Assembly (NCBI RefSeq): GCF_025215495.1
Contig: NZ_CP104302.1
Span: 3,162,001-3,226,000 of the forward strand
Length of the DNA: 64,000 nt
Source: Mycolicibacterium brumae
GTDB lineage: Bacteria; Actinomycetota; Actinomycetes; Mycobacteriales; Mycobacteriaceae
Reading direction: 5' to 3'
Part shown: positions 8,883-43,289 of the stretch, piece by piece
How positions within the stretch are numbered: position 1 is the first letter of the stretch
How the letters are laid out: every line of letters begins with the position of its first letter
Position numbers and translations under genes: made by a program
Notes under the pieces: generated by a model
The model's input: the letters and a program-made list of their open reading frames with translations, nothing else
Database searches by the model: none
What the model was told of the DNA's origin: nothing

Positions 8883-8934
8883 GCCGGGGACGCTACCCGG
8901 ATTTGCTACGGTCGCGGTGTCACCGGAGATGACA

Positions 8935-8981
8935 CCGGACGAGGGGCGCGCCGTACCCGGACAGCGACAAGACGGGCGCAG
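8935..8981 (+). promoter_or_regulatory. Guanidine-III (ykkC-III) riboswitch
   Basis: The run CCGGACGAGGGGCGCGCCGT followed by ACCCGG-ACAGCGACAAGACGGGCGC is a close match to the guanidine-III consensus as I remember it (CCGGACGAGGNGCGCC, GUACCCGG, then AGGACAAGACGG and GCGC). The GCGCC/GGCGC pairs would form the pseudoknot. The ribosome site GCGGAGG lies just after the last helix, 6 nt before the exporter ATG, so ligand binding can plausibly control its exposure. Guanidine-bound folding would switch the gene on. Confidence 0.9.
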
Positions 8982-8993
8982 CGGAGGCGCCTC

Positions 8994-13235: not shown

Positions 13236-13352
13236 GGTCATGAGCGCCAGCATCAAGCCCCGGCTTGCTGGCCGGCAACCCTCCATCCGCGGTGGGGTGC
13301 CCCGGGTGATGACCAGGTTGAGTAGCTCCGGCTACACGGCAAGCGCGGGTCC
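13236..13352 (+). promoter_or_regulatory. SAM-IV riboswitch
   Basis: The leader in front of metZ matches the actinobacterial SAM-IV aptamer: GGTCATGAGCGCCAGC, then AAGCCCCGGCTTGCTGGCCG, GCAACCCTCC, GGTGGGGTGCCCCGGGTGAT and GACCAGGTTGAGTAGC, ending in the pseudoknot partner GCAAGCGCGGGTC. It agrees almost base for base with the mycobacterial SAM-IV sequence I remember. The aptamer ends about 44 nt before the metZ GTG. High SAM should lower expression of the methionine genes; an expression-platform helix near the ribosome site is inferred. Confidence 0.95.
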
Positions 13353-27545: not shown

Positions 27546-27561
27546 TCGAACAAATGTTCTA
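27546..27561. promoter_or_regulatory. LexA (SOS) box upstream of dnaE2
   Basis: TCGAAC-AAAT-GTTCTA matches the mycobacterial SOS box TCGAAC-N4-GTTCGA at 11 of 12 defined positions. It lies 13 bp in front of the dnaE2 ATG, so LexA binding should block transcription initiation. The repeat array begins about 55 bp further upstream. Confidence 0.92.
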
Positions 27562-27617: not shown

Positions 27618-27996
27618 GTGAAGGCTCATGGACGCCAGTGAGACCGGCGGCGGGCCCGGTCATCGAGTGAGGAACCAGGTACGTCAGTGAGACGTGAGGG
27701 CGGCGGCCCTCATCGAGCGAGGAACCACGGACGCCAGTGAGACGCCAGGGATGCCAGTGAGACGTGACGGCGGGGCCGGTCATCGAGTGAGAATCTAGGG
27801 ACACGTCGTTCGAGTAACCCCCACCCGTATTTCTCACTCAACGCAGATCGCCGCCCTCACGTCTCACCGAGCTACCTCAGTTCTCAAACGCCTACCTGAC
27901 GCCTCACTCGATGAGCGACCCCGCCACCAGTTCTCACAAGCCGCCATCACGCCTCACTCGATAGACCACCTCGCCAAACGCCTCCCCGCCCCTCAC
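27618..27996. repeat. Helically phased palindromic GTGAG/CTCAC array A (upstream of dnaE2)
   Basis: This fills most of the 549-bp gap between dnaE2 and the SRPBCC gene. GTGAG-type pentamers start at 27667, 27687, 27717 (GCGAG), 27737, 27757 and 27787; mirrored CTCAC/CTCAA words start at 27833, 27863, 27883, 27903, 27933 and 27953. Spacings are 20,30,20,20,30, then 46, then 30,20,20,30,20. Pentamers 1, 3 and 6 of the left half sit in CATCGAGTGAG-like boxes, the others in CAGTGAGAC. Weaker extra units lie at 27618, 27638 and 27992. The dyad centre (about 27812) carries ACACGTCGTTCGAG. No credible ORF is present. Confidence 0.9.
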
Positions 27997-28082
27997 TCGA
28001 CACGCCAAAGAACGGCCGCAAAGCCGCGCCCGGCAACCCACCCCCTGGCAACCCGCGGCAAAACGTGGCAAGAATTGGGGTG

Positions 28083-40457: not shown

Positions 40458-42001
40458 CTGCCCTCCAGGTACCAGCGCCGACGCCGGTAGCACAGCAGCA
40501 ACGCCGCGCCCGGCTCCCCGTCGAGCAGCACCTGGGCCCGCGCGGTCCGGCCGGGGGCGGCCTGCGGGTCCCACCAGCGCTCATCGACCGGCCACGGCCC
40601 GGCCCACCACGCCAGCGTCCCGGCGTAGCGGCCGGCCAGCCGAGCGGGTGCGGAGCTGAACAGTCCCCGACCGGTGACGTGCACCGCGGCGCCGTCGCCG
40701 TCGAGCAGGTCCACCGGGTCGTCGAGCAGCACCGCGGGCGCGGGTTCGGGCAGCCGGCCCGGCCAGGGCTGATCCGCGACGTTGCGGATCACCGGCTCGT
40801 CGCCGAGCGGGGCCAACGCGATCTGATCCGACGGGCCGCGGCCGCCGCAGCGCACCGGGATCTGCACCGCCTCGGGCCCGAGCAGGCCCTGCACCCGGAC
40901 CAGCGCGCGCCGGGCCCGGGCCCGGTCGGCGTCCCCGGCGCCGCCCCACAGCGGCAACTGCAGCGCCGCCGCGGAGATCACCTCGACCGGCTCTAATCGC
41001 AGCACCGCGACCGGGCCGGCCAGCCGGTCCGGCCCGCGCCGGTTCAGCCAGCCGTCGAGCTGCCAACGCACCCGGTCGGCGGTGGAGTCGGCGGTCAACG
41101 GTTCTGCGCACCGCCAGACCCGGACCAGTTCGGCCCCGGTGTCGGTGACGGCGTGAATGGCCAGCCGGGTGCAGCCGACCCCGGCGGCCTCCAGGCCCCG
41201 GTGCAGGGTGGTGGCCAGCGAGCGGCCGGCGAACGCGGCGGCGTCGACGCGGTCGATCGGTGGGTCGCAGCGCAGTTCGACGGTCAGTTCGGCGGGTGGT
41301 TCCCGGCCGGCGGGCGGGCGCATCGGTTCGGCGCCGGCCATCCGGTGCGCGATCACCGCGTCGGCGCCGAACCGGGTGGCCACCTCGGCCCGGCCCAGCG
41401 CCGCGAACTGGCCGAAGGTGCGAATCCCCATCCGCCACAACAGGTCTGTCAGATCGGCTCGGCCCGGGTCGGACAGCCCGGGTTCGGCGGCCAGTTCCCG
41501 GATCGACAGTCCGGCCAGGAACTCCGCGTCCCGCCCGGGTTCGACAGCCACGCCGGCGCGGGCGGCCAGCACGGCGGTGGCCAGTTGCCCGGCGACGCCG
41601 ATCTGGCATTCGGCGCCGGCGGCGGCCACCGCGTCGGCCAACCGCTCCCCCGCCAGCGACTCGGACCCGAAGTAGCGGGCCGGCCCGCCGGCTGCGGCCA
41701 CCAGCAGCCCGGGCCGCAGCACCTCGGCCCGGGGTATCAGGTCTTCGACGGCGACGGCCACCGTTTCGAAGAACCGGGCGTCGCGCGCGAGGTCGGCGGC
41801 GGCGATGTGCACGCTCGGGCAGCGAGCCTGGGCCTCCCGGCGGCGCAGCCCGCGCCGGACGCCGGCGGCCCGCGCCGCGGCCGAGCAGGCGATCACCCGG
41901 TTGGCGCAGGTGACCGCGATCGGGGCGGTGGCGGGCAGCTCGGCAGCGGCGGCCGCCGCCACCGCCGGCCAGTCCATGCACCAGAGCGCCAGCACCCTCA
42001 T
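40448..42001 (-). CDS. imuB: ImuB, inactive Y-family polymerase-like mutasome adaptor
   Basis: 517 aa protein that links DnaE2 to the beta sliding clamp during SOS mutagenesis. The N-terminal 350 residues follow a Y-family polymerase plan ([50 protein letters not shown] helix-hairpin region), but the SxDE acidic pair needed for catalysis is not recognisable. The clamp-binding motif is QLPLW near residue 349, as in M. tuberculosis ImuB. The C-terminal part ([22 protein letters not shown]) is the ImuB-C region. The ATG overlaps the imuA' stop by 4 bp (ATGA). Confidence 0.95.
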
Positions 42002-42666
42002 GCCGGGGCCGCCACCCGGACCCCACGACCGCGGGCCCGCACCGCCAGCCGCACCCCGGCCAGCCGCCCGCGGCCCGGGGCGGGGACCGTCGTCTCATAG
42101 CCGCGCACCCGCGCGTCCAGCCGCAGCGCCGGGCCGGGCCAGTCGCCGTCGACGACCACCAGCGCCGCGCCGCGGTGCCGAAGCCGCCCGGACACCACCC
42201 GAGCCCGCGACGGGGCGACCGCCGCGCCGCGCAGCCCCAGCAGCACCAGGTCCATGCCGTCGACCAAGACTGCGGCCACCTCCACCGGATCGGCCCCGGG
42301 ATCCGGGACCACCGCGATCCGACTCAGGTCCGCGCCCATCTCGGCGGCGGCCAGCAGCCCCACTCCGGGCAGGCCGACGATGGCCGCGTGCCCGCCGGCC
42401 GCGGTCACCGCCGCGGCCATGCTCAGCGGCAGCGAACGCGCCCCGGAGACCACCGCCACGCCGCCCCTCGGCAACCCGTCGGGAAGGACCCCGAGCAGCG
42501 ATTCCGGGACCGGCAGCAAACTTTCTTGCGCCGAGGCCGACGGTTCCGAGGCGATAACCGGGGTGGCCGCACGGTGTCCGGCGCCCACCTTCCCGGAGAT
42601 CGCCGCCATCCGCTGACGCAGCTGTTCCAGCTGGTCAGAGCGATCTTCCCGGATAGCAACCACCAT
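41998..42666 (-). CDS. imuA': ImuA', RecA-like mutasome protein
   Basis: 222 aa partner of ImuB and DnaE2. It has a truncated RecA-like core: [31 protein letters not shown] replaces a Walker A, and [16 protein letters not shown] resembles a strand of the core; classic ATP-binding residues are degenerate, as known for actinobacterial ImuA'. ATG at 42666 (MVVAIRED) is preferred; an ATG at 42699 would add eleven residues and leave the SOS box only 6 bp upstream. Ends in an overlap with imuB, so both form one SOS-induced unit. Confidence 0.9.
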
Positions 42667-42705
42667 CGCCGACAACCTCCGCGCACACCGAACATCCACC
42701 CATGT

Positions 42706-42721
42706 TCGAAACTATGTTCGA
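42706..42721. promoter_or_regulatory. LexA (SOS) box upstream of imuA'-imuB
   Basis: TCGAAA-CTAT-GTTCGA matches the mycobacterial SOS consensus TCGAAC-N4-GTTCGA at 11 of 12 positions. It is centred about 48 bp upstream of the chosen imuA' ATG. No other gene is close on its other side; the second repeat array begins about 170 bp further upstream. Confidence 0.92.
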
Positions 42722-42893
42722 TAAATGGAGTAAACACCCGGCCACCGACAAGCGTCAAGGAGTTCAGGACGCGATCACAGCGCCGACCGCAGACTTACGG
42801 CGCGTCGTGCGGCGTGTCGCGGGCGGGCATCCCCGCGCCCCGGAGGCCGCGTCTCACACCCTCCGGAGGCCGCGTCTCCACCGCGCGAAACGC

Positions 42894-43233
42894 GTGAGGC
42901 GGAAGTGACGCCGGGGGCGATGCGCGAACTCTTCGGCCATCGACTGAGAAGTGACGCAGGTTGGTGAGAAACCTCGGCGGCCCTGGCCATCGACTGAGAA
43001 GTGACGCACGCCAGTGAGACATGACGCAGGTCAGTGAGACGTGACGGCGGCCTTTCTCATCGATTGAGAACTGACGTACACGTTGTTCGAGGCGGGCATG
43101 CGTGAGTTCTCAATCGATGAAAAACGCATCCCTGGTGTCTCACCGGCGTGCCTGAGGCCTCACTGACGTACCTCACTTCTCACTCGATTAGCTTGTGCGC
43201 CAACACTTCTCACAAACCGCCGCCAGTTCTCAC
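42894..43233. repeat. Helically phased palindromic GTGAG/CTCAC array B (upstream of imuA')
   Basis: Occupies the 626-bp gap between imuA' and guaA. (C/G/T)TGAG pentamers start at 42944, 42964, 42994, 43014, 43034 and 43064; mirrored CTCAA/CTCAC words at 43109, 43139, 43159, 43179, 43209 and 43229. Spacings are 20,30,20,20,30, then 45, then 30,20,20,30,20, the same as in array A. Pentamers 1, 3 and 6 (left) lie in CATCGANTGAGAA boxes, mirrored on the right as TTCTCANTCGAT. The 20-mer CCATCGACTGAGAAGTGACG occurs twice, 50 bp apart. The dyad centre (about 43088) carries ACACGTTGTTCGAG. A further GTGAG lies in phase at 42894. No credible ORF. Confidence 0.92.
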
Positions 43234-43289
43234 TCGATCGCCCGACCCGCAGGATGGCCCACCGGAGCCCCGGCCGAAGGCGGCCGGCG

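Follow-up and report, generated by a model that had tools for sequence, protein, structure and literature searches.

BIME/REP sequences of enterobacteria are dispersed extragenic palindromes, mosaics of short units that lie mostly 3′ of genes. MITEs are non-coding elements with inverted repeats and defined ends. For M. tuberculosis, TRIT terminators have reportedly been described (Gardner 2011, RNIE). The name TRIT appears in the part of PMC3526491 covered here, and the part of PMC2267715 covered here presents Myt-1 and Myt-8 as stem-loop families of M. tuberculosis.

We analysed an array of short boxes (array B) in a 64,000-nucleotide stretch of the Mycolicibacterium brumae chromosome (NZ_CP104302.1, positions 3,162,001 to 3,226,000), hereafter called the window. 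Array B is flanked by guaA and imuA', both on the minus strand (Table 1). The name imuA' was given from the position of the gene before an IMS-family imuB and from homologues in the genus; the gene product had no Pfam match. Like BIME/REP, the array belongs to a set of dispersed extragenic palindromic units present in many copies (27 places). However, its phased 20-bp boxes face one centre, whereas BIME/REP consist of individual hairpins in alternating orientation, and no RAYT-type gene (Y1 transposase, PF01797) was detected in the M. brumae genome. The array shares with MITEs its non-coding nature, inverted repeat, defined ends and presence or absence between genomes, but differs from them in its multi-box arms, in the lack of a target duplication signal and in the lack of a cognate autonomous partner within the array loci read. 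The TRIT terminators, compared by description only, may correspond to a short palindrome of the genus described below, as palindromes at gene ends; the long 12-box form, with no robust covariation between its arms, differs from them. Myt-1 and Myt-8, again set beside the array by description only, resemble it as short repeated stem-loop families of mycobacteria. No description of this box array was found among the papers listed by searches of the open literature, including the covered parts of PMC3526491, PMC2267715 and PMC9024992. A named sequence collection, in which records very near the M. brumae genome may be absent, gave seven single, chance-like matches and none in mycobacteria, and a scan of viral sequences with the array gave no match.

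Table 1. Features of arrays A and B and their surroundings, in window coordinates.
Feature	Position	Strand	Remark
Array B	42937..43240		One dispersed box-array copy, 302 bp by chained boxes
Array B, left arm	42938..43069	+	Six boxes, TGAG at 42945, 42965, 42995, 43015, 43035, 43065
Array B, centre	43070..43107		Carries the oriented family centre word ACACGTTGTTCGAG
Array B, right arm	43108..43239	-	Six mirrored boxes, CTCA at 43109, 43139, 43159, 43179, 43209, 43229
Degenerate extra box	42895..42912	+	50 bp beyond the left arm of array B
guaA	43293..44876	-	Stop codon 52 bp from the right end of array B
imuA'	41998..42699	-	Start 237 bp from the left end of array B
SOS-type box	42706..42721		Upstream of imuA', outside the array
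Array A	27634..27999		Second copy in the window; divergent neighbours are dnaE2 and an SRPBCC-type (PF10604) gene
SOS-type box	27546..27561		Upstream of dnaE2, outside the array

Phased boxes in array B and their copies in the genome

Each arm of array B holds six boxes, TGAG on the left and mirrored CTCA on the right. The steps between them are 20, 30, 20, 20 and 30 bp up to the centre and 30, 20, 20, 30 and 20 bp after it. The box positions listed in the first-pass annotation were exact when read as nTGAG and CTCAn. With type 1 defined as CATCGAnTGAG and type 2 as GTGAG without CATCGA, the order of the boxes is 1,2,1,2,2,1, then mirrored. Together, the arms make up an inverted repeat of 142 nt with 73% complementarity. 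Six five-box chains occur in the window and none occurred in 200 first-order Markov simulations; the phasing of array B is beyond chance.

The annotation had presented array B as the second copy of a unit with exactly the geometry of array A. However, array A lacks one left box (CGAG in place of TGAG at −70) and the distance across the centre is not equal. Counted from the T of the inner TGAGA to the final A of its mirror word TCTCA, the centre is 48 bases long in array B and 49 bases long in each of the remaining 20 class I copies (see below), among them array A. Nor are the copies limited to two. BLAST of array B against the 3.99 Mb single-contig genome yielded 84 matches at E ≤ 1, which were merged to 27 array places. 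The centre is of class I (AGGGACACGTTGTTCGAGTAACCCCCACCC-like) in 21 of them and of class II (CCGCCCTGGTGTTCCA-like) in six. Six further, weak BLAST places were inspected, of which five had no phased chain and one (L039) had a single three-box run. A geometric pattern of the array, allowing up to two mismatches, matched the genome 23 + 27 times, and its reversed control did not match at all.

All four inner boxes (0, 30, 50 and 70 from the centre) were in place in 37 of the 42 class I arms. The five exceptions were the left arms of L005 and L012 and the right arms of L002, in which the order of boxes differs, of L028, and of L030, which is cut by an insertion sequence (IS). The next 30-bp interval was 29 bp in several class I arms. 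Among 19 class I copies, identity between copies was 0.941 (left) and 0.891 (right) for the boxes, against 0.564 and 0.612 for the spacers. The earlier claim that spacing is kept while the intervening sequence drifts was supported, with boxes 89–94% and spacers 56–61% alike. The centre is itself conserved.

Array turnover between species and a shorter palindrome of the genus

When a member of a young subfamily (L021) was used as query, it matched one of 60 genomes of the genus, that of M. brumae itself. The geometric pattern (up to two mismatches) matched in 18 of 396 genus genomes. Besides M. brumae, a second species (G474), whose GuaA is 90% identical to that of M. brumae, had 16 + 14 matches (none for the reversed control), and the other 16 genomes had one or two each. 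After merging of matches, G474 carries 11 arrays. With steps of 19–21 or 29–31 bp allowed and 20 and 30 preferred, the distance across the centre was 45 in eight of the 11 chains; in the other three, one or both halves of the chain fail to reach the centre. The inner spacing of 30, 20, 20 and 30 bp recurs, and the arms are often longer, growing by 50-bp steps. The claim of conserved spacing thus stands and is strengthened by this species, in which the spacing is kept nearly always at other sites. One of the 27 M. brumae sites (L008) had both flanks at a G474 array, in a test that sites with strongly diverged flanks would escape.

Several M. brumae sites are empty in G474. Both flanks were matched with no array between them for array A, L016, L031, L033 and L035, and for L003 and L010 the G474 stretches contained just one of the two flanks. 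At L033 the gap is 11 bp in G474 versus 311 bp in M. brumae, and G474 also lacks the SRPBCC gene next to array A. The gap between imuA' and guaA of G474 contains no array; in that genome an array flanks guaA at its opposite end, a position without one in M. brumae. Between the SOS box and array B, M. brumae has a 16-bp sequence repeated directly at a spacing of 23 bp (42840-42878), which was not seen in the G474 gap. The annotation had proposed comparing the region upstream of imuA' across mycobacteria. At 29 other imuA' loci of the genus, no array was placed by the geometric pattern or by a model of the short palindrome (R1, below; E ≤ 0.1), the pattern being the better test because R1 misses array B itself. 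An SOS-type box (up to two mismatches) lies near the imuA' start in all 29 of these other species.

Two stray matches of the pattern (L105 and L117) turned out to be shorter palindromes, in which TGTG/TGAG boxes follow each other at a distance of 20 bp. One of them, used as query, matched in 47 of 116 genus genomes, and the model R1 was built from 22 of those short-element loci. With at most 72 candidates scored per genome, R1 matched at E ≤ 0.01 in at least 55 of 60 genomes of the genus, and RAYT genes were found in 10 of the same 60. In a sample of the order, six of 81 matched at E ≤ 0.001. Five of these belong to the genus and the sixth, G159, has a single weak match; none of four matched in other genera of the family. 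The short element consists of two 39-nt half-sites (AGTGTGCGYYSASGGCKTYSAGTGTGCGYYSAGGGCGRR-like) with two boxes per arm, at the same 20-bp step as in the long arrays. Its loop was 14 nt in 56 of the 59 elements kept from 62 examined (three had been removed before counting, and R1 had been trained on 22 of the 62), a spacing that is partly imposed by ungapped-leaning searches and the half-site scan.

On the centres of the long arrays, R1 matched in register but weakly, with a best E of 1.8e-4 in G474 and of 0.0015–0.004 in M. brumae; it gave no match to array B at E ≤ 1. The best R1 matches of the M. brumae genome were short elements away from the arrays. From these sequence comparisons, the long array is probably an enlarged, lineage-specific form of the short palindromic element.

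Other short repeats were seen in the course of the searches. A few palindromes of the genus type (L273, L274, L275) occur in M. brumae apart from the long arrays. In five genus genomes (L161, L162, L163, L164, L168), a short element apparently occupies one shared site, in the opposite orientation in L162, between flanks that we take to be aspartokinase and leuA. Another genome (G450) contains a further intergenic repeat, distinct from these, in two copies with similar flanks (L107 and L120); its TCTCA boxes are spaced by 20 bp.

Gene context and candidate functions

Of the 27 M. brumae arrays, 13 lie between convergent, 10 between tandem and three between divergent genes, and one was unclassified. 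These calls come from a home-made codon caller, which left one of 27 M. brumae sites and eight of 40 genus sites unclassified; an earlier, cruder caller had given 12 convergent, eight tandem and four divergent arrays with three open, and L030 and probably also L033, called tandem, look convergent from their ORFs and matches. The 11 arrays of G474 comprise seven convergent and four tandem cases. Among 40 genus elements, 18 were convergent, 12 tandem and two divergent, seven overlapped a called ORF and one was unclassified. For background, gaps of at least 50 bp in the G474 stretches (n = 112) were convergent in 21, tandem in 56 and divergent in 35 cases, and the remaining gaps within these 40 genus loci in 3, 17 and 14 cases, respectively. 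Compared with the G474 gaps, the convergent excess was significant both for M. brumae (13 of 26 classified; Fisher's exact test: p = 0.0016) and for the genus elements (18 of 32 classified; p = 6e-5), and the latter also exceeded the gaps of their own loci (p = 3e-5). Thus, the arrays favour the 3′ ends of genes, as a terminator would, with three of the 26 classified M. brumae arrays between divergent genes. Array B fits a role at 3′ ends, since it adjoins the guaA stop codon, but array A does not fit such a role, since it lies between divergent genes. The 3′-end bias is also expected if insertions are tolerated mainly there.

The explanation that we favour, plausible although somewhat short of probable, is that the array is a lineage-specific, enlarged mycobacterial interspersed palindromic element of the REP/BIME kind, whose boxes are bound by protein and which forms a two-way barrier to transcription at gene ends. 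In each arm, 20-bp boxes follow one another in tandem, with a 30-bp step before each CATCGA-type box, and face the conserved centre; copies come and go as whole units, with a preference for gene 3′ ends. Each box may be a DNA site occupied by one protomer of a sequence-specific protein. The two-sided array may then act as a roadblock-type bidirectional terminator or insulator against RNA polymerase arriving from either side. At array B, such a barrier would close the guaA transcript short of imuA'.

A possible, if doubtful, alternative is a MITE devoid of host function, in which the boxes would be sites for a transposase acting in trans and the rigid spacing would be the footprint of the transpososome. 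The unit has terminal inverted repeats and defined ends, as this alternative predicts. Ten of the 18 class I copies measured by chained boxes are 302 or 303 bp long, and in these ten copies, which were picked by length, the likeness just inside the ends (0.53 left, 0.76 right) falls to 0.33 and 0.35 just outside. Presence or absence between species, the young subfamily of copies 87–95% identical to L021, and the spacing of arrays along the chromosome (CV 0.95 versus 0.95 simulated) are also consistent with a MITE. The annotation had itself raised a common transposable palindrome scattered at random, and the unit is indeed multi-copy and dispersed. Against a MITE, no target duplication signal was seen (18 copies, 3.17 versus 3.34 permuted, p = 0.81; a very short duplication could escape this test). 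The conservation of the array centre also argues against a MITE, as does the count of called ORFs, which were placed within the array at two of the 27 places. One of these overlaps L019, and the other is that of the IS interrupting L030.

The latter ORF (L030:1696-3051) encodes a Mutator-family (PF00872) transposase, and a short direct repeat of array sequence is present at both junctions. An IS-borne array was considered and rejected, as this transposase is read as inserted into the array. A macrodomain-type spacing was likewise rejected, because the chromosomal spacing looks random.

An RNA-level intrinsic terminator or stabiliser, in which one long hairpin would end or protect transcripts from both sides, appears improbable. 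The array B transcript is predicted to fold strongly (−173 kcal/mol, z = −12.8), and the convergent-gap bias would suit such a hairpin; however, an inverted array of like boxes is expected to fold well anyway. Folding energies of own versus swapped arms gave p = 0.11 and 0.041 by strand in 19 copies, with a nominal advantage in the older 12 (p = 0.058 and 0.018). No such excess was found in the younger seven copies (p = 0.95 and 0.93) or in the 59 genus elements (p = 0.82 and 0.69). The identity of own-arm spacers was 0.520 versus 0.514 when permuted (p = 0.31; 19 class I copies, L010 and L030 left out), that at variable positions of the 59 genus elements gave p = 0.92, and a two-sided change was seen in two of seven predicted pairs. 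The covariation between mirrored arms that the annotation had put forward as a test was therefore not robustly present. We read the constraint as falling on the DNA boxes, with a weak residual RNA case in the older copies; the strong fold of array B and the nominal advantage of the older copies leave an RNA role some standing.

Rfam gave no match at the arrays, either in the window at gathering score or in nine loci at E ≤ 1. Elsewhere in the window, a SAM-IV riboswitch (13236-13351) and a Guanidine-III riboswitch (8914-8982) scored above the Rfam gathering thresholds.

It is scarcely credible that the array is specifically devoted to SOS regulation of the mutasome genes imuA'-imuB and dnaE2. 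An SOS-type box does lie about 215 bp from array B and another about 75 bp from array A. However, the remaining 25 of the 27 arrays are more than 500 bp from every one of the 25 SOS-like sites of the genome (up to one mismatch; 10 for the control), the next nearest being L007 at about 1 kb; G474 has no array at either matching site, and none was placed at the 29 other imuA' loci. The link to the imuA'-imuB SOS promoter made in the first-pass annotation thus falls, already contradicted by these counts and empty sites, and the array behind imuA' does not have the appearance of a switch reserved for DNA damage (SOS). Most of what the annotation had named as refuting its reading was observed, namely arms without robust covariation, imuA' loci free of the array in the relatives covered, and a palindrome dispersed in many copies. 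Since the arrays beside imuA' and dnaE2 are just two among many, a false SOS lead is removed.

The way in which mycobacterial transcripts are terminated at the ends of genes is a matter of debate. Within the favoured explanation of a protein-bound barrier, a more specific form, which we consider rather unlikely as a whole, is that a putative protein binds the 20-bp boxes serially and builds two facing filaments over 300 bp, so that the DNA-bound array, and not an RNA hairpin, would halt RNA polymerase in the gap separating convergent genes. In this view, the two-box element would be the genus-wide version, enlarged in this clade. A bound protein is suggested by a genus-wide palindrome that prefers convergent gaps and keeps its DNA boxes while lacking robust covariation at the RNA level, and the array offers a site at which this can be tested.
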